A DNA stretch of 64,000 nt from an uncultured Bacteroidales bacterium. Its GTDB lineage: Bacteria > Bacteroidota > Bacteroidia > Bacteroidales > UBA932. The position numbers and the translations under genes were made by a program. The notes under the pieces are model-generated. The model was not told the DNA's origin. It made no database searches and worked only from the letters and a program-made list of their open reading frames with translations. The stretch's first letter is position 1; every line of letters begins with the position of its first letter. Of this stretch, positions 1 through 12,901 are shown piece by piece. The DNA is taken from positions 19,759 to 83,758 of the forward strand of contig CALUTU010000011.1 in the NCBI GenBank assembly GCA_944323785.1, given 5' to 3'.

Positions 1-2131
1 AGAGCTTGAGAATGCATGCGAGAAAGACCTTCTTGCTATAAGTCATGCCAAAGAGAAGCTGGAGCAGGAAATAGCCAGGCTCGATGAGCTCTTAGCCGGG
101 CAGAAAGGCTCTTTCATAGAGTGGTTGGAGGATAATGCCGCCGGATGGAAGGACAACATAGGCAAGGTGGCGAATGATACCCTGCTTTACAGTACTTCTC
201 TCGAGCCGTGCAAAGCCGGAAACTCGGACACGCTGTATGGAATCCGCATTGAACTGCAGAATGTGGACAGGACTGTAAATACTCCTGAGGAAATACGCTC
301 AAAGATAGATGAATATAAGCAGCAAATCAACGCACTTGACAATAAGGCGGCAGAGAGGCAGCAGAAGCTCGATGGCGATATTGAAGAACTGGAACGTCAG
401 CCGTCGGTGAAATTAAAGAGTCTCCGCAAGGAGAGAATCAACATGGAAGCGGAGTTAGGGCAGATTCCGGCACATATAGGACATTGCAAGAAAGAGATGG
501 GCGTATATCAGGAAAAACTCAAAGAATGGAGAGACAGAGAGTTGAATGATATAAGAGGACAGTCAGGGAAGATAGAGGAACAGCTGGCCAGGCAAAGAAC
601 GTTAAAGCAGCAGACTGGCGCTCAGAAGCGGAAGGAGGAAGAAGAGTTGCGCAAATCTGTGGAGCGCAGGAAAAGGGATATTGATACTTTTGCAAGGCAG
701 AAAAAAGAAGATGTCAATGCAGCACTCAAGCGGCATGAGGCTGACATCGCAGTGCGCAGACGGGAACTTGAGGCGCAGGAGGATGCGGAGCTTAAAGGAC
801 ACGGCGTGGATGTAAACAGACTGGCGGAGATAAAGGTGGAGCTGCAACAGGTCAACGACGCTCTGGATTATATTGAGAATCATAAACAAGATTATTACGC
901 CTGGCAGAAAGACAAGAAGGAGTATTTTGATCTGGAACAGTCCAAGAAAGAGGAACGGAAACGGCTGCAGGAGAAGATGAGTGAGCTGCAGCATAAATTT
1001 GACCTCAGAAGAGAGAAAAAAGAGGCGGAAATCCGCACGGTCTCCGGGGAAGTCCAGTCCCTGCAGAGTGAGAAGGCGAGGCTTGAAGAAGCCATTGACA
1101 GAGTCAATCAGTTTTTAAACAATCCCACATGCCCCTCCGATATTGCCGGGGCCGGGACTCAGGAGACTCAGGAACAACTGTCTTCTATCCTGGACAACTT
1201 AAGGGACAACATCAGCGGCTTGCAGCAGAGGATGGAGGAATTCAAAAAAGCTGTTACTGTATTCAAGAGCAATTTCTCACCTCAGAATACATTCCATTTC
1301 CGAACAGAATTCAATACCGAAGCGGATTACGTGGAATTTGCGTCAGAACTGCACGAATTCATATCCAACAACAAGATAGAGGAGTACCGTACCCGTACAA
1401 GCGGTCTGTATGCCGACATAATCAAGCGGATTGCCAGGGAAGTAGGAGATCTTGACAGGCACGGCGCCGAGATTAGAGCCACCATAAACGAGATAAACCG
1501 GGACTTCAGGGAAAACAATTTCGCAGGTGTAATCAAGGAAATAGAGCTTCGTGCAGTGGAAAGCAGCGACAGGCTTATGCAGCAGCTTATCAATATCAAG
1601 AAATTTGATGAGGAATATGGCTTTGATATTGGAAATCTGAACCTGTTTTCGACAGAAGAGTCCCAAAGCAAGACTAACGAGCAGGCTGTAAAGCTGTTGG
1701 TGAACCTGATAGAGATGATGGACTTAGACCGCAAACGTGAGAGGATAACCCTGTCTGATACATTCAAACTGGAGTTCAAGGTCATGGAGAATGACAACGA
1801 CACCAACTGGGTGGAAAAACTCTCCAATGTCGGCTCGGACGGAACGGACATATTGGTGAAATCGATGGTGAACATCATGCTTATCAATGTGTTCAAGAGG
1901 AAGATATCCAAGCATTTCGGGGATTTCAGGCTGCACTGCATGATGGATGAGATAGGCAAACTGCATCCTGATAATGTGGAAGGTATATTGAAGTTTGCCA
2001 ACGTGAGGAATATTTTCCTGATAAACAGTTCTCCGACAACGTACAATGCTCAGGTCTACAAGTACACATATTCTCTGAGCAAGGATGACAGGAACAATAC
2101 TGTAGTAAAAACATTGCTGACTATAAGATAA
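1..2131 (+). CDS. SMC/MukB/JetC-like ATP-binding protein, 5' end outside the window
   Basis: The frame is open from base 2, so the start lies to the left and 709 C-terminal residues are visible. The first 350 residues are Lys/Glu/Gln-rich heptads typical of an SMC coiled coil. The last 150 form an ABC-type head half: a signature-like stretch GSDGTDILVKSM, then a Walker B-like strand ending in MMDEIGK, then a strand with FLINSS. This is the arrangement in MukB, MksB, JetC and DUF3584-type proteins, which act as DNA-loop-extruding condensin-like motors. The Walker A half must be off the left edge. The JetD-like gene starts 8 bp downstream, which points to a Wadjet-like plasmid-defence or condensin locus. 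JetA- and JetB-like genes would be expected further left but cannot be seen. A generic DUF3584 ATPase is the main alternative. Confidence 0.75.
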   Translation, partial: ELENACEKDLLAISHAKEKLEQEIARLDELLAGQKGSFIEWLEDNAAGWKDNIGKVANDTLLYSTSLEPCKAGNSDTLYGIRIELQNVDRTVNTPEEIRSKIDEYKQQINALDNKAAERQQKLDGDIEELERQPSVKLKSLRKERINMEAELGQIPAHIGHCKKEMGVYQEKLKEWRDRELNDIRGQSGKIEEQLARQRTLKQQTGAQKRKEEEELRKSVERRKRDIDTFARQKKEDVNAALKRHEADIAVRRRELEAQEDAELKGHGVDVNRLAEIKVELQQVNDALDYIENHKQDYYAWQKDKKEYFDLEQSKKEERKRLQEKMSELQHKFDLRREKKEAEIRTVSGEVQSLQSEKARLEEAIDRVNQFLNNPTCPSDIAGAGTQETQEQLSSILDNLRDNISGLQQRMEEFKKAVTVFKSNFSPQNTFHFRTEFNTEADYVEFASELHEFISNNKIEEYRTRTSGLYADIIKRIAREVGDLDRHGAEIRATINEINRDFRENNFAGVIKEIELRAVESSDRLMQQLINIKKFDEEYGFDIGNLNLFSTEESQSKTNEQAVKLLVNLIEMMDLDRKRERITLSDTFKLEFKVMENDNDTNWVEKLSNVGSDGTDILVKSMVNIMLINVFKRKISKHFGDFRLHCMMDEIGKLHPDNVEGILKFANVRNIFLINSSPTTYNAQVYKYTYSLSKDDRNNTVVKTLLTIR

Positions 2132-2139
2132 ATTTGAGG

Positions 2140-3006
2140 ATGGGAATAACAGTTGCACAGACGGAAAAACTGCTGAGGCTGGCAAAAGGAGATACGTTGC
2201 CGTCGAGTATACTTAAAGGAGAACTGTTCGAATGGATGGTTTCGGACGGAATACTTGTTGCCGTCACCCGAGGCAGCAGGAAGAGTTATCGTGCAAGGGA
2301 CGGGCGGTCTCTGAGAGATTATATTGCTGCTCATTTTGATATCAGAGATCTTGAGAAGTATTGTAAACTGTTACAGGAAGGAGGTGCGTCCCGTGCTGAG
2401 CAGGTGAGGATGACCGGGAATTCCAAGACTATAGCGCGCCGTACCTTCTACGGCTTTATGGTCAATTGTTATGAGCCGATACCTGTTATGTTGGCGGGAA
2501 AGTCTTTCAACCTGTTGCCTGAGGAAGGGACATTCGCATTCATCTATGATTTTAATACATTCTCAATTCCGGGAGACACCGTAGTTGTAGGCATTGAGAA
2601 TGCCGAGAATTTCAGATACATCAGAGAGCAACGGCCGCTGTTTGAGTCCATATCTCCAAAAGAATCCAGGTTGTTGTTTGTCTCCAGATATCCTCAGGAG
2701 CAGAGTCGTGACCTTATGCAATGGCTTATTTCAATCCCCAACCGGTATGTCCATTTCGGAGATTTGGACTTGGCAGGAATCCATATTTACCAGAGTGAGT
2801 ACTACAGACGTCTCGGGGAAAGGTCCTCTTTCCTGATTCCGCAAGATTATGAGTACAGAATATCAACAGGCAGCAGTGAAAGATATGACAATCAGTACAG
2901 TAGATTCGGCAAAATGAAGATTACAGATTCCCGTGTGGCCTCTCTTGTGGAGTGCATTCACAGATACCATAAAGGCTACGATCAGGAAGGGTTTATTGGC
3001 AGTTGA
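2140..3006 (+). CDS. JetD-like Toprim-domain protein (Wadjet/MksG-type nuclease subunit)
   Basis: A 288-residue protein. I chose ATG 2140 over an in-frame TTG at 2134. The N-terminal half looks like winged-helix DNA-binding material. The C-terminal half has the two Toprim signatures of the JetD/DUF2220 family: a Glu at residue 153 in VGIENAENF and a D-x-D pair at 208/210 in HFGDLDLAGIHIY. In Wadjet systems the JetD Toprim subunit cleaves DNA that has been looped by the SMC complex. Here it lies directly behind a JetC-like ATPase, the same order as jetC-jetD. It is shorter than typical JetD proteins of about 350-400 residues. Metal-binding residues look intact, so the protein is probably active. 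The family assignment is from motif and context. Confidence 0.78.
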   Translation: MGITVAQTEKLLRLAKGDTLPSSILKGELFEWMVSDGILVAVTRGSRKSYRARDGRSLRDYIAAHFDIRDLEKYCKLLQEGGASRAEQVRMTGNSKTIARRTFYGFMVNCYEPIPVMLAGKSFNLLPEEGTFAFIYDFNTFSIPGDTVVVGIENAENFRYIREQRPLFESISPKESRLLFVSRYPQEQSRDLMQWLISIPNRYVHFGDLDLAGIHIYQSEYYRRLGERSSFLIPQDYEYRISTGSSERYDNQYSRFGKMKITDSRVASLVECIHRYHKGYDQEGFIGS

Positions 3007-3028
3007 ACATTGTGTGTCACTTACTGTT

Positions 3029-5740
3029 ATGGATGCAAGGCTGTACATGATTGTGGATTTGGAAAGGCGAGGAGATAAGCGGATGTTCATCACGGAGCAA
3101 GTCGTCTCGATAAGTGAGAGCGGCAGCGGTCTTTGGACGGTGCGGTTCTCTTCGTCTCCGCGAGTGTTCAATTATAATCATGCGAGACTGTTGTGTCTTT
3201 CGCATCCAGAGACTGTGGACCTTCAGGATAAAGGACTGTATGTCAACAATCGTCATATAACGAATGTCAAAGAACTCCTCCGCTTCACGGATGGGCGGCA
3301 TACATTTTATCATGTGACTTATAACAACGGTTATTATGAGAATCTTGAAAGTACGGAAGTATATGTCTCCCGCACACGTCTGGATAAAGATGGAGGCTCT
3401 GTCTGGGATTACTTGCGTAAATTGGCCGAAGAGACAAGTCTGATTACGGAAGAAGATGACAGTATTCTTTCTAAGCAATATGATTTGGTGGATGTTATGC
3501 GGGATAATGTTCCATTGGTGCAGTATCTTGGCAACGGAGCCCGGTTGGCCTCATATAACTGTCCGGAGCAGATATACTATCCGTTCGGATGCAATGCAAG
3601 CCAGAAGGCTGCTGTGGAAGCCGCATTGATACATCAGGTAAGTATCATTCAAGGTCCTCCTGGGACAGGCAAGACACAGACCATCTTGAATATCATCGCC
3701 AATCTGCTTATGGCGGATAAAACGGTGCTGGTTGTGTCGAACAACAATTCTGCCGTCGATAATGTGGCGGAAAAGCTTGAGAAAGAATGTCTTGGTTTTA
3801 TTGTGGCCAAATTAGGCAGTGCTCAGAATAAGAAGGCATTCGTTGCCAATCAACCCGATTATCCGGATATGAGCGGTTGGACGATAGAGGAAGTCCCGGC
3901 AAAACTATGTGCGCGGGATTCGTTGCTTGCTGTGACTAAGGGATTTGAGGCACAGATACGTCAATCTGGGCTCAAATCTGAGTACGATGCCTTACTGAAA
4001 GAGATGAAATACGAGAATATGGCCCGACGGGAGCAATCGTGCGATGAAAAATTAGGCGGGATGAGCTCAGCCGTGCTTATGAGGCTGCTTAATCTGTATC
4101 AGATGAAGATCAGGGCGAGCGGGCGCAAGCCGGGTCTGTGGTCCAGGTTAAAGTGGACTTGTGCATTCGGTATGAGAATGTTCCGGTTTCTCAGCAGCGC
4201 TCCGTCTTATGTGACACGTTCATTGGAGGCTGCGTATTATTCTTCGCGCAAGACTGAAATAGAAGAGGAACTATGCTCAATCGCTGCGATGCTGCAATCT
4301 ATGGATCTCGATGAGCGGACAAAAGATTTGCGCTCGACTTCACTTGCAGTGTTGAAGAGCAGGATGGCTGATCGTTATGGCACAGGAGAAAGGCAAAAGT
4401 TTGAAGTCAGAGAGATAAAACCGAAGACTGCGGCATTCCTGAAGGAGTATCCGGTCGTGCTGAGTACAACCTATTCTGCCAAGAGCTGTATCAGTAAGGA
4501 TATGGTCTTTGACTACGTGATTATGGATGAGGCGTCACAAGTTGATATAAAGACAGGTGCGCTGGCCTTGTCCTGTGCCGTGAATGCCGTAATTGTAGGC
4601 GATGACAAGCAGCTCCCCAATGTGGTCAGCAGGGAGGAGGCACAGGCATTGAACGCTATCCAATCAGAGTACAATGTGGATGACAGATACAATGCCGCCA
4701 CGCACAGCTTCCTGCAGTCTTGTGTGGAAGTCTTCAAGGATGCGCCGGTGACATTGCTCCGTGAGCATTATCGCTGCCATCCCAAAATAATCGGATTCTG
4801 CAATAAACGGTTCTATGACGGCGAATTGGTGGCCATGACCACAGATATGGGCGAGGATAAGGTCTTGCAGGTTGTACGGACTGTCAAGGGAAATCATGCC
4901 CGCGGGCATTTCAACCAGCGTGAGATTGATGTGGTAACGCAGGAAGTGATGCCGGAATATGCGGATGTTGGTAGTGTGGGCATCATTACTCCCTATCGGT
5001 TGCAGGCGGAGGAAATCAATAAGGCGATAGGGACAGATATTGCCAGTACGGTACACAAGTATCAGGGACGTGAGTGTGATACCATCATCATGAGTACGGT
5101 TGATAATGTGCCGACGGAGTTCTCAGATGACCCCAATCTGCTCAACGTGGCAATATCACGTGCCAAGACACATCTGTGCATAGTCACCAATGGCAATGAT
5201 ATGCCGCAGAGCTCTAATTTGGCCCAGCTTATCGCTTATGTCCAGTACAACAACTTTGAAGTGAAGGAGAGTAAGCTTCATTCAGTGTTTGATTTGTTGT
5301 ATAAGCAGTATACGGCGGAACGGTTGGCGTATGAGCAGGCTCACTCGGTCGGTGCTGGGTATCTCTCTGAAAACCTTGTGTATGACATGCTGATTAAAGG
5401 AATAGCCAAGTCGGGATTGGCAAATACAGGTGTCCTGTGCCATTATCCTCTGTCAAGATTGATTGCTGACTGGGATATGCTGGATGAGCGGGAGAAAGCG
5501 TTTGCAGAAAGCCCTCTTGCGCATGTGGACTTTTTGATTTATAATTCTCTTACCAAGAGGCCGCTTCAGACCATCGAAGTGGACGGTTGGCATTTTCATA
5601 AAAACAGCGAAGCCCAGCAGTCACGTGATGCCCTAAAGAACCAAATACTCACTAAGTTCGGATTGTGTCCGCATCGTATTTCCACAACAGCGACCGTAAC
5701 CGAGGAAACGATTGTGAGCCTTCTCAATCAGGATAAATGA
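3029..5740 (+). CDS. Superfamily 1 DNA/RNA helicase fused to a C-terminal PD-(D/E)XK-type nuclease domain
   Basis: About 903 residues from ATG 3029. The frame is open further upstream, overlapping the Toprim gene, but ATG 3029 leaves a natural 22-bp gap. SF1 helicase motifs are clear: Walker A GPPGTGKT at 209-216, DEAS at 500-503, GDDKQLPN, LREHYRCHP and VAISRAKTHL near residue 715. This is the Dna2/Upf1/AAA_11-AAA_12 type. The last 80 residues carry HVDFLIYN (Asp 834) and EVDGWHFHK (Glu 850, Asp 852), the pattern of Vsr/DUF2726-like PD-(D/E)XK nucleases. The insert between Walker A and DEAS is long and of unknown role. Position right behind the SMC and Toprim genes, on the same strand, suggests one operon and a shared defence function. 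That linkage is inference. Confidence 0.82.
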   Translation: MDARLYMIVDLERRGDKRMFITEQVVSISESGSGLWTVRFSSSPRVFNYNHARLLCLSHPETVDLQDKGLYVNNRHITNVKELLRFTDGRHTFYHVTYNNGYYENLESTEVYVSRTRLDKDGGSVWDYLRKLAEETSLITEEDDSILSKQYDLVDVMRDNVPLVQYLGNGARLASYNCPEQIYYPFGCNASQKAAVEAALIHQVSIIQGPPGTGKTQTILNIIANLLMADKTVLVVSNNNSAVDNVAEKLEKECLGFIVAKLGSAQNKKAFVANQPDYPDMSGWTIEEVPAKLCARDSLLAVTKGFEAQIRQSGLKSEYDALLKEMKYENMARREQSCDEKLGGMSSAVLMRLLNLYQMKIRASGRKPGLWSRLKWTCAFGMRMFRFLSSAPSYVTRSLEAAYYSSRKTEIEEELCSIAAMLQSMDLDERTKDLRSTSLAVLKSRMADRYGTGERQKFEVREIKPKTAAFLKEYPVVLSTTYSAKSCISKDMVFDYVIMDEASQVDIKTGALALSCAVNAVIVGDDKQLPNVVSREEAQALNAIQSEYNVDDRYNAATHSFLQSCVEVFKDAPVTLLREHYRCHPKIIGFCNKRFYDGELVAMTTDMGEDKVLQVVRTVKGNHARGHFNQREIDVVTQEVMPEYADVGSVGIITPYRLQAEEINKAIGTDIASTVHKYQGRECDTIIMSTVDNVPTEFSDDPNLLNVAISRAKTHLCIVTNGNDMPQSSNLAQLIAYVQYNNFEVKESKLHSVFDLLYKQYTAERLAYEQAHSVGAGYLSENLVYDMLIKGIAKSGLANTGVLCHYPLSRLIADWDMLDEREKAFAESPLAHVDFLIYNSLTKRPLQTIEVDGWHFHKNSEAQQSRDALKNQILTKFGLCPHRISTTATVTEETIVSLLNQDK

Positions 5741-5873
5741 AGAATACTGTATTTTTATTCATTTTAATTGAAATTGTTTCATAACAATAATTAAATTTGT
5801 ATTGCTGAATACAAATTAATATAGTTGAATATTAAGTGTTGTCCGAAAATAATGATAAGGTCCTTGGAATTTC
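5741..5873. other. A/T-rich spacer with a stem-loop between convergent genes
   Basis: The spacer between the helicase and the Crp/Fnr gene is strongly A/T rich. It contains a perfect stem of 10 bp (5794-5803 with 5808-5817) around a GCTG loop. There is no clear U-run, so its role as a terminator for the helicase operon is only a guess. Confidence 0.4.
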
Positions 5874-6485
5874 TCAGGTGAGGACGTAGCCGTCGGTGGT
5901 TTTGCGGAGGGTGCCCTGGGAGACGAGCTGGGAGACGGCGCGGGAGAGGGACGGGCGGGCGACGCCGAGGATGAAGGCGGTCTCCTGCAGGTTGGATATC
6001 GGGCCGTTGTTCTCAATGTAGCTTACGATGCGCGATGAGAGAGTCTGGAGGGCAAACTCCACGAGGCGGTTGCTCAGGAACATACTGTGGTCGGAGATGA
6101 CTCTGAGGTAGTTCTGCATGACGGTCTGGTCGGCTTTCAGGATACGCAGCATGGCTTCCCGGCTGATGAGCCAGATGCTGCAGTCGGAGGCGGCGATGAT
6201 GGTTACGGGAAAGATGCCGTCTGTACTGAAGATAAATGACGAGGCCAGCACTTCAGGGGCGCTCAGTGTGTCCAATGTGAATTCCCTGCCCTCCTCGCTT
6301 ACCATTCTGGCGTACGCGCTCCCGCTGCACAGCAGGTACAGTTGCTTGCAGACATAGCCCTGAAGGGCGATGATATCCCCTTTGGCGTACAGCCTGTGTC
6401 TTGCGGGATTCTCCTGCAGGATGTTGTCAATGAGTTCTTTATTGCCGCCAGAAAATAGCGGGAGGCTGTAAATGTCGCAATCCAT
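5874..6485 (-). CDS. Crp/Fnr family transcriptional regulator
   Basis: A 203-residue protein from ATG 6485. The frame stays open to a TTG at 6521, but the ATG gives a normal family length. Residues 20-110 read as a cyclic-nucleotide-binding-type beta-barrel (YAKGDIIALQGYV, LLCSGSAYARM, TLDTLSAPEV). Residues 150-200 are the winged helix of the family, with recognition helix ARPSLSRAVSQLV and a following wing. I see no cysteine cluster for an Fe-S centre, so an Fnr-type oxygen sensor is unlikely, and the ligand is unknown. It is transcribed away from a three-gene lipoprotein operon. A perfect 14-bp palindrome lies in the 81-bp gap, so it probably controls itself and that operon. Confidence 0.85.
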   Translation of the reverse strand: MDCDIYSLPLFSGGNKELIDNILQENPARHRLYAKGDIIALQGYVCKQLYLLCSGSAYARMVSEEGREFTLDTLSAPEVLASSFIFSTDGIFPVTIIAASDCSIWLISREAMLRILKADQTVMQNYLRVISDHSMFLSNRLVEFALQTLSSRIVSYIENNGPISNLQETAFILGVARPSLSRAVSQLVSQGTLRKTTDGYVLT

Positions 6486-6514
6486 GTCAAGTTTCAGTTT
6501 GTTTCGCAGCGGGT

Positions 6515-6528
6515 GTAACAATTGTTAC
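6515..6528. promoter_or_regulatory. Perfect 14-bp palindrome, candidate Crp/Fnr operator
   Basis: GTAACAATTGTTAC reads the same on both strands and lies between the divergent regulator gene (ATG 6485) and the lipoprotein operon (ATG 6567). The two-fold symmetry with a G-T-A-A-C half site suits a homodimeric Crp/Fnr protein. No binding data are available here. Confidence 0.6.
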
Positions 6529-6550
6529 GGAAAATGGCCGCAGGCCGGAA

Positions 6551-6558
6551 TACTTTTG
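6551..6558 (+). promoter_or_regulatory. Bacteroidota -7 box for the lipoprotein operon
   Basis: TACTTTTG fits the TAnnTTTG consensus and ends 8 bp before ATG 6567, so the leader would be almost absent. The nearest TTG that could act as -33 (6522-6524) lies inside the palindrome and is 26 bp away, longer than usual. Activation by the bound regulator could compensate for this. Confidence 0.5.
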
Positions 6559-6566
6559 CACCCGTT

Positions 6567-8429
6567 ATGAAAAATTACACAAATATACTAATTATTCCGG
6601 CTATTGTGACTCTGCTGGCTTCCTGTTCTCTGGAAGAGAGACCGGCGTGTCCTTCAACAGGGACAGAAGGAGACCGTATCACCGCAGGACTTCAGTATTA
6701 CGGTTTTGATGGAGGTGAGCCCATGACACGTGCTGCTTCATCGGCAGATTATGATCGGGTAGAGCTGCTGGTTGCGGATGACGTCGGTTCTATAGTCCGC
6801 AATGTAAAGGTGGGCTATGAGCCGCACACTGCTCTCGTATATATCGAGGGACTTCAGCCTGGCGGATACCGTCTTATGGTGGCAGGAGTGAAGGGGGATG
6901 CGGATAAGGACGGAGTTAGGTTCGCTTCTGTCGACAATGCCTCTGAGACGTGGATAAGTTTTCCGGAGTCAGGAGTTGTCGGGTCGGAGTATTTTTATTC
7001 GTCAACGGCCTTTTCGGTCTGGCCGGAGGACGGTCCGGGCGGAATGGTCTTAGTGTCCGACATGCCGGAGACTATTGTGCAGGAGCGCATAATAGGCCGC
7101 TTGGATGTGGCTCTCAATTTCCGTAATCAGTATATCGAGGGTGCATTGAAGTCTGCTGTGGTCGGGTTGAGCTCTCCGGTATTCTATTCAGGACTAACGG
7201 CTGACGGAAATTTTGCCGGTACTGCGGACAGGGCGGATATGACATTGGACCTGATGGAGGACAGAAGCTTTTTCCTGATTCCGACTGTGCCGGACGGCGG
7301 CTCTGGCGGCATGGTGGAAATAGTATCGCGCACATATACCGGCGAGACTGTCCGGAGGGAATATGCCGTTTCGCTGGAGGCCGTCGTTGCCAATCGGGTA
7401 ACCTCGGTGTCCGTCGAGCCAGTCCATCCGGATGACGGGAGCGGAACCATGTTTATCACGGACAGGACATATGCGGCAGGCAATCATGGCCGGATCCTTC
7501 AGGATGACGAGCCGCATGCTGTCTATACTGACAAGACATTGCGTAATTTCAATACGGCCAGACCGTTGCAGATATCCGTGACCGGCGAGGGGCTGTTGAG
7601 TGTCCGATTTTATTCTCCCAAGCCCCTGAAGGACGTACTGATACGGGCGCGTATCCCTTCGGTGGGGAAAGAATATGTGGACCTGGCCTATTTTGACAGT
7701 ATACCTGCCTTTGCGGATTTTTACGGTGAGATACCGGCTCTGTCCGCATCGCTGCTCTACCGTACCGGGTCGGGCAGGATAGTGGAGCTGCCGCAGTTGA
7801 CGGCTGAGCAGATGGCTGAGGCTGACTACAGTATAGTCTCATCTGATACCTACTGGAGCAAGCTTCAGAAGATACGGCACGGCTGGAATGTCCGATTTGA
7901 CCTTTACGGTGGCGATCCTGACAAACCGGACGGAGGCCCTCAGGGCAACTGGATGGGCATCAGACCGGTACACTGTCGCGAAGCCGTGGCGTTCTTTCTC
8001 AATTTCACCTATATGATAGATATGCCGGAGCATGAGGAGATATTGTGGGCCAATCAGGACCGTCTTTATGGCAATGGCGGAGTGGACGACAAGGTGTCGG
8101 TAGAGACAATACTCTCTCAGATGAGGCAGGACAGGACGGTCAATGTCGGCCTTGTCTACACTGGAAATTATGTCTATGGTCTTGGCGGCGGCAGTGTTTT
8201 CGGCGCATGGCAGGGAGGCTGGCTGGACCACTATACCTCTGAATATGCGTGTGAGGTCATGTTTCACGAGCTTGGTCACGTGATGGGCTACAGTCACAAC
8301 AGTTCCTTTACTTACGGACCGTGGGCTCAAGAGCTAATGAACAGATTTTATGTCAATAACATCTCGGAGATGCCGGTCGAGTCTTCCCATTGGCTTGACA
8401 GCAGGGCCAATCCGAACATATACAAGTAA
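6567..8429 (+). CDS. Fimbrillin-like lipoprotein with a metzincin-type zinc protease motif
   Basis: 620 residues from ATG 6567, chosen because a lipoprotein signal follows directly (LLASC, Cys 20). The sequence after the cysteine reads SLEERP, a pattern shared with the next two genes and typical of Mfa2/FimB anchor proteins. Residues 40-300 are beta-rich and fimbrillin-like. Near the C terminus, HELGHVMGYSH (567-577) matches the metzincin zinc signature HExxHxxGxxH, with the three His ligands and catalytic Glu all present. This predicts a surface-exposed metalloprotease tied to a fimbrial-type anchor. It is first in a three-gene operon and its stop overlaps the next start. Substrate is unknown. 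The fimbrillin part is called from pattern only, so the protein may instead be a plain secreted protease. Confidence 0.72.
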   Translation: MKNYTNILIIPAIVTLLASCSLEERPACPSTGTEGDRITAGLQYYGFDGGEPMTRAASSADYDRVELLVADDVGSIVRNVKVGYEPHTALVYIEGLQPGGYRLMVAGVKGDADKDGVRFASVDNASETWISFPESGVVGSEYFYSSTAFSVWPEDGPGGMVLVSDMPETIVQERIIGRLDVALNFRNQYIEGALKSAVVGLSSPVFYSGLTADGNFAGTADRADMTLDLMEDRSFFLIPTVPDGGSGGMVEIVSRTYTGETVRREYAVSLEAVVANRVTSVSVEPVHPDDGSGTMFITDRTYAAGNHGRILQDDEPHAVYTDKTLRNFNTARPLQISVTGEGLLSVRFYSPKPLKDVLIRARIPSVGKEYVDLAYFDSIPAFADFYGEIPALSASLLYRTGSGRIVELPQLTAEQMAEADYSIVSSDTYWSKLQKIRHGWNVRFDLYGGDPDKPDGGPQGNWMGIRPVHCREAVAFFLNFTYMIDMPEHEEILWANQDRLYGNGGVDDKVSVETILSQMRQDRTVNVGLVYTGNYVYGLGGGSVFGAWQGGWLDHYTSEYACEVMFHELGHVMGYSHNSSFTYGPWAQELMNRFYVNNISEMPVESSHWLDSRANPNIYK

Positions 8430-10609
8430 TGATGAAAAAGTATTTGAGACCAATATTGCTTATGGCGGTGCTTATCTCCGGATGCTCGCCGTCAGATGAG
8501 AGGCCGCAGGCTGATTTGCATGAGGCATTGACGGTCAAGATGGATGTAGATGGTCAGGATGTGTATGATGTGTCTGCGCTCAGGTTTGAAAGCGGAGTGC
8601 TTCGGGAAGTGCTGCCCTTGGAGAAAAGTTACGGAGATAATATTTATATCCTGGAGCCATCAGAGATATCTGGCAGGCTTTATCTGCTGGCCAATTCTTC
8701 GGCATTGGCGGCTGTGGACGGTTTTATCCCCGGGGATGTCACGGAGGAGGAACTTATGGGACTCACGGCTCCTGTGGAGGAGATGACCGGGCAGGGCCTG
8801 CTGATGACCGGTTCTTTAGAACTGCGTGACAATGTGGCGGGCACTCTGCCGGTGAGTATGCGCCGGACTGTGGCACGTATGGATGTCGCTGTTGCCGAAG
8901 CCGGGATAGAGGTGCTGTCTGTGGAGGTGACAGGACTGTATGGAGAAGGATATGTGATGCCTCGTGCGGAGGATGTGTCAGTGCCGGAGACAGCCGGGCA
9001 GATGAGGATTGTCCGGGACTATGGGGAGACTCCGCTCACAGGCGGGAGAGATGTCCTGGCGTATGTGCCGGAGCAGTCGTGTACTGATGCTGCTGTGGAG
9101 GTGGCGGCCAGACTGGAAGGTGCTCTGCACCGTTTGCGGGTCACTCTGCCCGGTGTATTGGAACGCAATAATGTCTATACGGTGCAGGTGAGTGGAAACG
9201 GGGCCGGACTTTCGGCTCTGGTGCTCTATGACAATTGGGGTCTGGGACCGTCTTCGGGTTCGGAGTATGTCCCTGCCGTAGCGGTGGATGTTGACAATTC
9301 GGTACTGGGTAGTGGCGTAAGGGTAAATGACATGGGTGACAGTGTCTTTGTGGCCTATACAGGAGGCTCGTATACTTTGGTGCTGTCTGCGGCGCGGGAT
9401 GCGGAAATCGCGGTAGAGGGCTTTTCTGCGGATGCCGAGGTAGTGCCTGGGGATGATGGAATACGGGTGACGAGCGTGTCCAGGAAGCCGGGCAGCAAGA
9501 CTGAGAGATTGTATCTCAATGTGCGTCAGGGAGAATTGTCAATAGGAAGAGTCGTGATAGTTTTAGAGGCAAGTCCGATAAAGTTGGGAGGAATGCTTGC
9601 ATTGGACAGCAGTGGAGTCTGCGATTTCGGCCGGTATGTGGACGGAGTGTTGGGAACGGTGAGTGTCCCGGCCGGAAAGATTGTGACCGTGGAAGTTCCG
9701 CATGATGCGCCGTGGATGAAGGCCGAGCTTCAGGCTGAGGATGACGGAGGCCGTGTGTATAGGATATTGGGAGGATGGCGGCCCAATGATCCGACAGCTG
9801 ACGGCCGGACACAGGAGGGGCTGCTGGTCATATCCGATGATGACGGCGGCAACCGTGAGGCATATGCGGTAAGGCGGCTCAACTGGGGACTGCCGGTGGC
9901 AAGGATAGGTGAAACGTGGTGGGCTGTCTTCAATCTCCGTGGCAATGCGCGTAGTTTTGAGGACCAGATTACCGGCGGGCCGTATGTGGTAGAGGATGAT
10001 CTTATGAGCTTCCTGCAGACTATGCCGGACGACAGCCTGCTTGCACTGATGGGAGACCAGTATCAGGCCGGCAATCCGGACGGGCTCGTGCTCAGTCACA
10101 ATGGAAGCGCATATTATTACGAGGGCATGAAGGCCTACGGAGGGGATTTCGGTCTGCTGGATCCTGCGGCCATGGCTCCGGACGGCTATCAGATACCGTC
10201 TTACGATGACTTCGCCTATCTGGCGGCGAGTGATGACTACAATCTCGGCGGGGTGGGTACCAGGACATTCACCAACCGTAAAGGAAAGATGATTACAGTC
10301 ACCATTGCTGAGCGGCAGGCGGAATTTCTCGGACAGGATTACGGAACAGTGTCCTTTTACGAGTTTGAGTCTGACGGTAACCGTTGGGTGCTCTTCGGTC
10401 TTGGCCATCAGTGGAGTACCGCGGCCGGAGATGTGGCCCGCATGAACATCCTGCTGGCTACATACGGCAGCAGCGGACGAAGCTGGGGACTTGAGGGATA
10501 TGCCTCCTCCGACCGTCCCGGACAGAACTGGCTGAAGTTCGTGGCGCACAACAATACCAAGACCAGGACTATAAGGTGTGTCAAGACACCCGTAGAGTAT
10601 ATTTATTAA
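8429..10609 (+). CDS. Mfa2/FimB-like lipoprotein with C-terminal FISUMP-like domain
   Basis: 726 residues. ATG 8429 overlaps the upstream TAA (TAATG); ATG 8432 is an equal alternative. The lipobox is LISGC (Cys 19), followed by a DERP motif close behind. Residues 30-280 resemble the Mfa2/FimB family (LLANSS, SMRRTVARMDVAV, NNVYTVQVSG), which anchors and regulates fimbriae in Porphyromonas and Bacteroides. The C-terminal part has PDGYQIPSYDDF, like the FISUMP or sulfatase-modifying-like fold often seen at adhesive tips. It is a close paralogue of the next gene: both carry GGWRPNDPTA, a GLPV..WW block and RSFxDQI in the same order. It is probably an outer-membrane adhesin or tip protein. No major pilin gene is adjacent. 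Confidence 0.75.
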   Translation: MMKKYLRPILLMAVLISGCSPSDERPQADLHEALTVKMDVDGQDVYDVSALRFESGVLREVLPLEKSYGDNIYILEPSEISGRLYLLANSSALAAVDGFIPGDVTEEELMGLTAPVEEMTGQGLLMTGSLELRDNVAGTLPVSMRRTVARMDVAVAEAGIEVLSVEVTGLYGEGYVMPRAEDVSVPETAGQMRIVRDYGETPLTGGRDVLAYVPEQSCTDAAVEVAARLEGALHRLRVTLPGVLERNNVYTVQVSGNGAGLSALVLYDNWGLGPSSGSEYVPAVAVDVDNSVLGSGVRVNDMGDSVFVAYTGGSYTLVLSAARDAEIAVEGFSADAEVVPGDDGIRVTSVSRKPGSKTERLYLNVRQGELSIGRVVIVLEASPIKLGGMLALDSSGVCDFGRYVDGVLGTVSVPAGKIVTVEVPHDAPWMKAELQAEDDGGRVYRILGGWRPNDPTADGRTQEGLLVISDDDGGNREAYAVRRLNWGLPVARIGETWWAVFNLRGNARSFEDQITGGPYVVEDDLMSFLQTMPDDSLLALMGDQYQAGNPDGLVLSHNGSAYYYEGMKAYGGDFGLLDPAAMAPDGYQIPSYDDFAYLAASDDYNLGGVGTRTFTNRKGKMITVTIAERQAEFLGQDYGTVSFYEFESDGNRWVLFGLGHQWSTAAGDVARMNILLATYGSSGRSWGLEGYASSDRPGQNWLKFVAHNNTKTRTIRCVKTPVEYIY

Positions 10610-10642
10610 AAACATTTTACTAACCATTTAAATTTAAAAAAG

Positions 10643-12901
10643 ATGAAAAAGAATTGGACAACTGTGCTGATGATGTCGCTGATGCTGGCATCCGCATGTA
10701 ACGTAGAGGAAAGACCTTCTCCGGTACCTGGAGGAGAGAGGATAGTAAGGGCCGCTGTCTCCGGGTATGAGGGTTCTGGCCTGTCGCTCGACGGAGAGAA
10801 TACTGTCGATGACCTGCAGGCCTGTATATTTGACAAGGGACGCATGACGGCCGTATTCGAGAATATACCCGTTTCCGGCAATGCTTATGAGATAAAGGTG
10901 ACCGGCTATTCCGGCAATATGTATGTGCTGGCTAATACTGCGGGTCTTGTAGACCTTACTGCGCTGCAGTCTGGAAATATTACCGAGGAGGAGTGGCTGC
11001 GTCTGGGACTGGCTACCAACCGTGACGGCCCGGCACATTTTTTCAGCGGCAGTGTAAGCCTGGACGGTGTGAGTCCATCGCAGACTGAGCTGCCAGTAAC
11101 TCTCCGCCGTGGAGTGGCACGTTTTGACCTTCAGATAAGGACAGCAGGGGTTGCGTCCGTGACGGGGATAGAATTCCGCAATGTGGCGCAGTCTGCCTAT
11201 GTCTTCCCGGTGGACGGAGAGTATTCTCCTGCGGATGTGTCAAGGGATGTGGCAAAAGTCACTTTCGACGAGCCTGTAACATCTGATACTCAGGCGGTGA
11301 TGTATCTTTATGAGCAGGCCAATGATGGTATAGAAGTGAAGGTTGAGGCGGTGCTGGACGGTAAGAGCTATACCTTGACCAAGACTCTTTCAGGAGATGT
11401 TCTCCGAAATACTGTCTATACCCTTACCGTACGGAAGGACAACATAGATGTTACACTGGATATTACCTTCGAGGACTGGGGCTCAGGTGGTGACACGGAG
11501 CTGACACCGGACAGAAGCAAGGCCGTTGCCGTGGATGTACACGGCAGTGGCCTGCCCTACGGGGTTGAGGCGTTGGACGGAGGCAGGACATTGGTTCTGC
11601 CTCATTTTGCATCTGATTTTATCATATCCGTGGACAGTGACGAGGAACTGGAACTGGTCTCTGCAGAGGGTTATCTGCTTTCTGTGGATGCCATTCCTTA
11701 TTCCGGAGCTGACGACATGAACCGTTTCAGGATAAGCAAGGCCCTGTACGCTCCCGGTGTTCAAGGAGGGGAGACTGTATTGCAGTTCCGCCGCAAAGGA
11801 CTGGAGCGGGTCTATCCTGAAGACCGTATTGTCCTGAAACTGTCTTCCAATCCGGCGTATATAGAGGGTGAAATGGATTTTGACTCAGAAGGCTATGCCT
11901 ATGACTTCGGCCGTTATGTGGACAATGAGCTTGGGGTGCTGACTCTCCCGGAAGGCAGTACTGTGTCGGTCAGATTTGCGTCAGGAGAGGACCCGTGGGT
12001 CAGACTGGATGCCGCAGGCAATAACCGCTGGCGGATAGTAGGCGGCTGGAGACCCAATGACCCGACAGCCAATGGCCGCCGGCAGTCGGCTGTAGTTGTC
12101 ATATCAAATGGCGTGATAGAAGAGGAATATACTGTGACACGTCGCAATTACGGACTGCCCGTCACCTGGCTTCACGGGATATGGTGGTGCAAGTACAATG
12201 CAATGGGCAATTCCCGCAGCTTTGACGACCAGATACTCTCATCTGAGGATCCTGCAGTGGCGGCGGGTATGAGTCTGTTCGATTATCTTGCGGTGTGCAG
12301 TGCGGATGAATACCGCAGTCTGTGGCAGTGGGCTTATCAGGGCGCCAGCGGCCATGGCATGAAGGTTGTCGACAACAACGGCGTGCTGGTGATGGATGGA
12401 TTCAGCATGAATGTACCGGCGCATATCAACAAACTGCCGGCCGACTCCCTGTCTCCGGACGGTTACGAACTGCCATCCATGGAGGATTTCAACCGTATAT
12501 TCGATGCAACGGATTATGTATGGATGATGTGGAACGGTACGCACCGGCTGAAGACACCGTGGGAAGGCCATGACATTATCAAGCGGGTACAGAAACGGAA
12601 GGACAATGTGACTGTAGGAAGCCAGACAATATCCAATCTCTATTATGCGGCCATGTCCTCACCGGACTATCCTGAGCATGAGCCTGTGGTGTGGTACGGC
12701 CCCGGAGCCCAGTGGAACGATGACGGTATACAGCATGCGAATCATTACAACAACATACTCTTCGGAGTGTACTCTCCGAAAGGGGAAGGATGGTACATCG
12801 CCGGCAATATGGATGCATTCTATCTACACAAGAATGGGGCGGGAACGCGCGACACCCGTATCCTACGCTTTAAAAAGTCCGATGTGGAGTACATTTACTA
12901 G
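10643..12901 (+). CDS. Mfa2/FimB-like lipoprotein, paralogue of the upstream gene
   Basis: 752 residues from ATG 10643 with an A-rich leader. Lipobox LASAC (Cys 19) is followed by NVEERP. The N-terminal half repeats the family pattern: VLANTAG, TLRRGVARFDLQI and NTVYTLTVRKDN. The C-terminal half has GGWRPNDPTA, GLPV, RSFDDQI and PDGYELPSMEDF, matching the upstream protein block for block, so the pair arose by duplication. It ends with VEYIY like its paralogue. It sits 33 bp after its neighbour and is probably in the same operon under the palindrome at 6515-6528. Likely role is fimbrial anchoring or surface adhesion. The ligand and pilin partner cannot be read from the sequence. Confidence 0.75.
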   Translation: MKKNWTTVLMMSLMLASACNVEERPSPVPGGERIVRAAVSGYEGSGLSLDGENTVDDLQACIFDKGRMTAVFENIPVSGNAYEIKVTGYSGNMYVLANTAGLVDLTALQSGNITEEEWLRLGLATNRDGPAHFFSGSVSLDGVSPSQTELPVTLRRGVARFDLQIRTAGVASVTGIEFRNVAQSAYVFPVDGEYSPADVSRDVAKVTFDEPVTSDTQAVMYLYEQANDGIEVKVEAVLDGKSYTLTKTLSGDVLRNTVYTLTVRKDNIDVTLDITFEDWGSGGDTELTPDRSKAVAVDVHGSGLPYGVEALDGGRTLVLPHFASDFIISVDSDEELELVSAEGYLLSVDAIPYSGADDMNRFRISKALYAPGVQGGETVLQFRRKGLERVYPEDRIVLKLSSNPAYIEGEMDFDSEGYAYDFGRYVDNELGVLTLPEGSTVSVRFASGEDPWVRLDAAGNNRWRIVGGWRPNDPTANGRRQSAVVVISNGVIEEEYTVTRRNYGLPVTWLHGIWWCKYNAMGNSRSFDDQILSSEDPAVAAGMSLFDYLAVCSADEYRSLWQWAYQGASGHGMKVVDNNGVLVMDGFSMNVPAHINKLPADSLSPDGYELPSMEDFNRIFDATDYVWMMWNGTHRLKTPWEGHDIIKRVQKRKDNVTVGSQTISNLYYAAMSSPDYPEHEPVVWYGPGAQWNDDGIQHANHYNNILFGVYSPKGEGWYIAGNMDAFYLHKNGAGTRDTRILRFKKSDVEYIY

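Follow-up and report, generated by a model that had tools for sequence, protein, structure and literature searches.

The window analysed here, a stretch of 64,000 nucleotides from an uncultured Bacteroidales bacterium (contig C11:19759-83758 of genome G000), opens with an SMC gene, a Toprim gene and a gene for a large helicase with a nuclease-like C terminus, all on one strand. The first-pass annotation had read the first two as part of a Wadjet-like system and proposed that the helicase could be its co-directional fifth partner, processing the ends left by JetD, or else an independent defence gene. The locus thus raises the question of whether it encodes a complete Wadjet system, and whether the helicase belongs to that system or is a separate gene carried along with it.

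Table 1. Coordinates of the features discussed, in window positions unless marked L002 (the leftward reading stretch, C11:4000-23000).
Feature	Position	Strand	Remark
JetA, kleisin-like, 398 aa	L002:12506-13702	same as SMC gene	upstream, outside the window
JetB, MksE-like KITE, 183 aa	L002:13699-14250	same as SMC gene	upstream, outside the window
JetC/MksB-like SMC ATPase, 1218 aa in full (last 709 in the window)	1..2131	+	DUF3584
JetD/MksG-like Toprim nuclease (predicted), compact, 288 aa	2140..3006	+	DUF7281, conserved Toprim residues
SF1 UPF1/DNA2-like helicase, 903 aa	3029..5740	+	C-terminal DUF2726, PD-(D/E)XK-like
AT-rich palindrome ATTTGTATT-GCTG-AATACAAAT	5793..5824		close to the tract's right end
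Crp-like regulator (named by eye)	5874..6521	-	right flank of the insertion site

The annotation had left the presence of jetA- and jetB-like genes to a leftward extension of the contig, and both proved to be there (Table 1). The ORFs of L002 follow one another on the same strand in the order JetA-JetB-JetC-JetD (L002:12506-18765, overlapping window positions 1-3006), with short overlaps among the 398-aa, 183-aa and 1218-aa genes and the Toprim gene next. The SMC gene in full spans L002:14234-17890, and its window ORF (2-2131) is open at the left edge. Its identification as an SMC-type ATPase was borne out: the Pfam family DUF3584 was matched at 1.7e-34 by the 709-aa fragment and at 2e-64 by the full 1218 aa, and the residues G30, G33, G35, K36, G1120, S1121, G1123, D1158 and E1159 were conserved in all 33 aligned sequences, as was Ser37 except for a Thr in three of the 33. 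We take these residues to be those of the Walker A, signature and Walker B motifs, of which the ABC signature and Walker B fall in the part of JetC encoded in the window. JetB belongs to the MksE family (PF21980; 2e-40). JetA matched no Pfam or PADLOC jet family; its predicted fold, modelled from 25 of 29 alignment rows after the plasmid rows L004-L007 were dropped, was of moderate confidence (pLDDT 78, pTM 0.43) and found no match at E <=0.001, with MukF (9gm7_C) ranked first at E 1.6e-3 and the E. coli JetABCD chain 8q72_E second at E 2.2e-3.

These genes share with Wadjet, MksBEFG of C. glutamicum and EptABCD the one-strand order of a putative kleisin, KITE, SMC and Toprim genes, an MksE-like KITE protein, the SMC ATPase residues and the Toprim Glu and DxD of JetD. 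Together with the weak likeness of the JetA fold to MukF and JetABCD (E ~2e-3), this upholds the description of the locus as Wadjet-like, and because JetA and JetB were found on the contig to the left, the operon is, as judged from its sequences, a complete and divergent Bacteroidota form of JetABCD (= MksFEBG). The divergence is considerable. The PADLOC models of JetB, JetC and JetD were matched only at ~1e-4 to 1e-6 (JetB 1e-4; JetC 3e-6, with Lamassu LmuB next and about as good at 1.7e-5; JetD 3e-6). We tried to assign the operon to one of the PADLOC Wadjet types I-III and rejected the assignment, as the subunits do not all convincingly match one type. Likewise, a search of the PDB by sequence returned nothing convincing for the JetA, JetB and JetD profiles and mostly coiled-coil matches for the JetC profile. 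Within a limited literature collection, we recognised no account of a DUF7281 Wadjet branch or of a DUF2726-helicase defence family.

JetD is the most distinctive subunit. It is 288 aa long from its ATG, and an in-frame TTG at 2134 would give 290 aa. The sole Pfam family passed is DUF7281 (1e-6; 28.9 bits for a cut-off of 27), and JetD_C, at 0.077, falls under its cut-off. Among 43 aligned relatives, DUF7281 was matched in 40 and JetD_C in 17 (at 0.01), and one PADLOC JetD1 model was matched weakly, at 0.001, in 31. The annotation had placed the catalytic residues correctly: E153, D208 and D210 are kept in 42, 42 and 43 of the 43 relatives, respectively. A C-terminal (D/E)281-Q282-E283 is conserved as well (D or E at residue 281 in 40/43; Q282 and E283 each in 42/43). 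The remark that this protein is shorter than usual stands against the PADLOC JetD profiles that were matched, which span 346-409 positions and are some 60-120 residues longer, but not within its own family, where the length is 277-302 aa (median 286) and compactness is therefore a family-wide trait. The one sequence departing at E153, D208, Q282 and E283 is that of L102, an orphan jetD lacking jetABC beside it. This homologue (L102 9093-9926) and a second one without jetABC (L101 5988-6479, 163 aa) may each be a remnant or a repurposed gene; the Toprim residues are lost in the former.

The JetD structure was predicted from 38 of the 43 rows, dropping the plasmid rows L004-L007 and the degenerate L102, and the model reached a pLDDT of 93. 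Among the 50 fold matches listed, two Spo11 core complexes stood alone at E <=0.001 (1.3e-4 and 2.9e-4), a likeness in probability and E-value, though their TM-scores were low (0.32-0.38). MksG has likewise been compared to topoisomerase VI-A/Spo11, and its metal binding is attributed to E236 and D279, with E349 and E351 as further candidates (PMC10123090). The C-terminal (D/E)QE of the compact proteins may correspond to the E349/E351 glutamates, judging from position rather than from alignment. The JetD profile matched no solved chain by sequence, and neither this search nor the 50 fold matches listed recovered a solved JetD or MksG structure, which argues against a close kinship of compact JetD with them.

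The annotation of the third gene also proved accurate with respect to its 903 residues, its position 22 bp behind the Toprim gene on the same strand (3007-3028) and its PD-(D/E)XK-like C terminus. Translation from a GTG at 2933 would lengthen the protein from 903 aa to 935 aa. Pfam identified AAA_11 (4e-29), AAA_12 (4e-26) and DUF2726 (2.7e-9), and the SF1 helicase core, of the UPF1/IGHMBP2/DNA2 kind, is intact. The DUF2726 residues D834, E850, Q863, D867 and K870 were kept in all 11 homologues, and D852 in 10 of the 11. The protein shares the core and conserved motifs of UPF1/IGHMBP2/DNA2-type SF1 helicases (TIGR00376, PF13086/PF13087) but differs from them in an N terminus of its own of ~180 aa and in the C-terminal DUF2726, and it scores 161 bits on TIGR00376 for a cut-off of 349. 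Its best PADLOC matches are MkoA and MkoC of Mokosh (MkoA at 2e-60 over residues 129-723). Mokosh systems presumably comprise an MkoB kinase partner or a PLD domain. We rejected the helicase as a Mokosh system: no kinase was seen by eye among the adjacent ORFs, the Pfam scan detected no PLD domain and the nuclease domain is DUF2726.

We found the same five genes in a relative, L030 (CALVDI010000007.1, labelled as an uncultured Bacteroidales MAG). Starting 53 bases past the ABC-F stop codon and reaching window position 5802, a 9.2-kb tract aligns between the two genomes at 99.7% identity over 9199 columns. The flanks are far more diverged: the abutting 4.4 kb on the left of L030 is 89.5% identical, a 7.8-kb left stretch is 86% identical, and pieces located beyond the tract on the window's right side show 88-92% identity to another contig. 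The mismatch counts by gene show the same pattern, with 2/1197 in JetA, 0/552 in JetB, 11/3657 in JetC, 1/873 in JetD and 10/2808 in the helicase ORF (counted from the GTG and so overlapping jetD), against 79/1812 in the ABC-F gene and 160/1113 in the RmlB gene. The contrast between a 99.7% tract and 86-92% flanks indicates that the five genes recently moved together, or were exchanged together, as a single tract. At their right ends the two copies differ: positions 13707-14114 of L030 hold an extra gene of 135 aa, secreted-looking by eye, between AAATTTGTAT repeats, and this gene is absent from the window, where the two AAATTTGTAT repeats form one palindrome with no gene between them.

The cassette is flanked on the left by an ABC-F gene and on the right by a Crp-like one (ABC-F, RmlB, Crp-like and lipoprotein are names given by eye from sequence and are not family calls). 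In another genome of the same genus, G474, the ABC-F and lipoprotein genes are present with three other genes between them (L123 7097-14401), which encode a STAND NTPase with WD40 repeats (1299 aa), a SIR2-like/TIR protein (431 aa) and a 710-aa protein with no family matches. These three genes are possibly an undescribed three-gene defence system. A third genome of the genus, G485, has 41 unaligned bases between the aligned ends of the ABC-F and Crp-like genes, at a contig edge. The different insert in G474 and the near-empty site in G485 show a variable site that has received two or more distinct inserts. Genes similar in size to the three of G474 adjoin the ABC-F gene in G433 (L124), sizes alone being compared. 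To the right of the Crp-like gene, three large lipoprotein-like genes (by eye) lie in a row at window positions 6522-12901, the first with a metalloprotease-like HELGHVMGYSH motif.

We then considered whether the helicase is linked to jet genes elsewhere. JetD loci came from three sources: four from plasmid records, 24 from genome contigs and 22, spread over 21 genomes, from a set of 393 genomes of the order. The window's own genome and L030 were left out, the duplicates L034/L083 were merged and L052, where no JetD gene was called, was not counted, which gave 46 other distinct JetD proteins. The loci from the order-genome searches with JetD and with the helicase were re-read with wider flanks. 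All four jet genes lie within the covered stretch at 38 of the 46 loci, and at one more, L005, by a separate reading. The helicase is found in none of the 46 stretches, of which 35 cover at least 2.75 kb downstream of jetD and 43 at least 100 bp, the latter being sufficient to see a 22-bp junction. The contig loci describe local neighbourhoods, the scan of genome contigs covers close relatives, and the genome samples were evenly drawn from part of the order and of the phylum.

Counts over whole genomes agree. Of the 393 order genomes, apparently the same set in both searches, 21 had a JetD match and 14 a helicase match. Only one genome other than that of the window, G326, has the two together, on separate contigs (C132 and C117), for a chance expectation of 20 x 13 / 392 = 0.66. 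Across 395 genomes of the phylum, 2 had a JetD match (partial in the second, G792) and 19 a helicase match, with the window's own genome as the sole overlap. Put differently, the helicase occurs without a JetD match in 12 of the 13 other order genomes and in all 18 other phylum genomes that have it. No relatives of JetD or the helicase were found in viral contigs, and none of JetC in a phage collection. Seen from the helicase, no jet gene was present at any of 27 other loci read with their flanks, some of which are short; these counts exclude the short loci L133-L151.

The neighbourhoods of the helicase do not point to another constant partner. A same-strand gene lies within 100 bp upstream at 7 of the 27 loci and none does at the other 20. 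In the search of these 27 loci for a conserved partner gene, the neighbour groups common to four or five loci were all on the opposite strand. A SNF2-family gene is common to two loci; so are an HNH endonuclease gene and a second gene, the latter encoding a neighbour of ~290 aa, near the helicase in two genomes (L076 274-4938 and L162; PADLOC ThsC2 at 4e-12 in L076). The nearest relatives found are those of L152, a Parabacteroides distasonis record labelled as a plasmid (78%), and L069 (72% identical). Both stand behind SNF2-type helicase and DNA-methyltransferase genes (L152 2676-14709; L069 5340-17304), with a TIR gene too in L152. When the window was compared with five such helicase loci, DNA similarity began no further upstream than 5 bases ahead of the start codon. 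Similarity confined to the region from about the start codon is the pattern of a gene joined as a unit.

Nor did the jet loci yield another recurrent gene beside jetD: the widest neighbour family spans four loci and adjoins jetD in one, and none of the families present in two jet loci lies directly behind jetD in both. In a Persicobacter plasmid, two tandem genes for AAA ATPases of 567 aa lie directly behind jetD (L004 10879-14341), and related ATPases lie ~2-8 kb from three other jet loci.

These distributions led us to reject the helicase as a conserved fifth Wadjet gene. The linkage that the first-pass annotation made its proposal hinge on is indeed rare: the helicase is absent from the covered stretch at all 46 other loci and accompanies JetD in a single other genome of the 393. 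What stands of that proposal is the co-directional layout of the five genes in one near-identical tract of two related genomes; the conserved linkage is absent. We therefore favor an interpretation, which we hold to be probable, in which the locus is a 9.2-kb transferable cassette made of a divergent Wadjet operon and an independent, probably defensive helicase-nuclease, moved or exchanged as one piece. The helicase is most likely an independent gene outside the Wadjet core. Its defensive role is inferred from its neighbors in a few loci.

The main alternative makes the helicase-nuclease a fifth subunit peculiar to this lineage, which would degrade the plasmid from JetD-made ends and so turn a single cut into plasmid destruction. 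The 22-bp same-strand spacing, the intact helicase and nuclease residues and the transfer of the five genes in a single tract would fit a functional five-gene operon equally well. However, the one near-identical tract speaks for shared transfer and not for shared function, and the absence from all 46 JetD stretches, the prevalence of helicases in genomes without a JetD match and the SNF2-helicase and DNA-methyltransferase context of the two nearest relatives all stand against such a subunit, which we regard as unlikely. It is similarly doubtful that a compact DUF7281 Wadjet of this lineage has acquired a stand-alone helicase-nuclease as its fifth gene, which now resects JetD-made ends; if true, this would represent effector coupling at an early stage in an SMC-based immune system.

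A second alternative concerns the operon itself, which could be mainly a chromosome condensin in this lineage, comparable to MksBEF and without an immune role. The MksE match of JetB is strong, and MksBEF of P. aeruginosa contributes to chromosome organisation (PMC10586767). Two Bacteroidetes genomes are reported to lack any known condensin homologue (PMC10197239). The Wadjet-like family described here is divergent enough to escape such condensin searches. Since nearly all of our loci came from the JetD query, operons lacking jetD were under-counted, and we therefore searched 295 order genomes with JetC. Eighteen were matched, 15 of them with a JetD match too, and the JetC locus of G011 is interrupted by a contig end. 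G121 (L181 3142-8574) and G258 (L182 5753-11246) present jetA-jetB-jetC without an adjacent jetD, and the surrounding genes look like housekeeping ones; the helicase of G121 lies on another contig (C7 versus C12). Nuclease-less, MksBEF-like relatives thus exist, and those of G121 and G258 are candidate MksBEF-like condensins of Bacteroidales, which suggests that part of the Wadjet-like family may be condensin. The operon of the window, however, possesses jetD with its catalytic residues kept, four copies of the family are in records labelled as plasmids, and the spread is patchy (JetD in 21/393 and 2/395 genomes; JetC in 18/295). The patchy distribution, the nuclease gene and the location at a variable site, within a cassette that moved recently, make an immune role of this operon more likely than a housekeeping one, and we consider a mainly condensin function very unlikely here. 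Finally, both genomes with the junction look like drafts (G000 has 36 contigs and L030 is titled as a MAG), but it is hardly credible that an assembly or binning artefact produced the jetD-helicase junction or the identity of the tract, as the junction occurs with both reading frames intact in two assemblies whose flanks differ (89.5% identity on the left of L030, the extra 135-aa gene on its right).

Under the favored reading of a two-module cassette, the first module would be the complete divergent JetABCD. Wadjet extrudes loops and cleaves small circular DNA (PMC10586767). By analogy, JetABC would be loaded onto DNA and form loops by extrusion, and a small circular plasmid would be cut by the JetD Toprim dimer once extrusion on it has run to completion. 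The anti-plasmid action of this operon is thus presumed from gene order, homology and the conserved ATPase and Toprim residues. The second module would be the SF1 helicase-nuclease gene, which elsewhere usually lacks a close upstream partner and sometimes lies beside defence genes. Because it is intact and lies 22 bp behind jetD, it is probably read through from the jet transcript. A promoter and terminator scan found no site between the two genes. The helicase would most likely act alone, as a second nucleic-acid-targeting defence gene and not as a partner of JetD. The cassette as a whole occupies a variable ABC-F/Crp-like site and has recently moved or been exchanged whole.

These results describe a Wadjet/MksBEFG branch, here encountered in Bacteroidota, which the PADLOC models barely detect. 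The compact JetD could show the minimal needs of a Wadjet nuclease and, given the two relatives with A-B-C and no nuclease, the branch may illuminate a step between condensin and immune complex. With its two modules 22 bp apart that moved jointly, the cassette itself calls for caution in equating adjacency in an operon with partnership.
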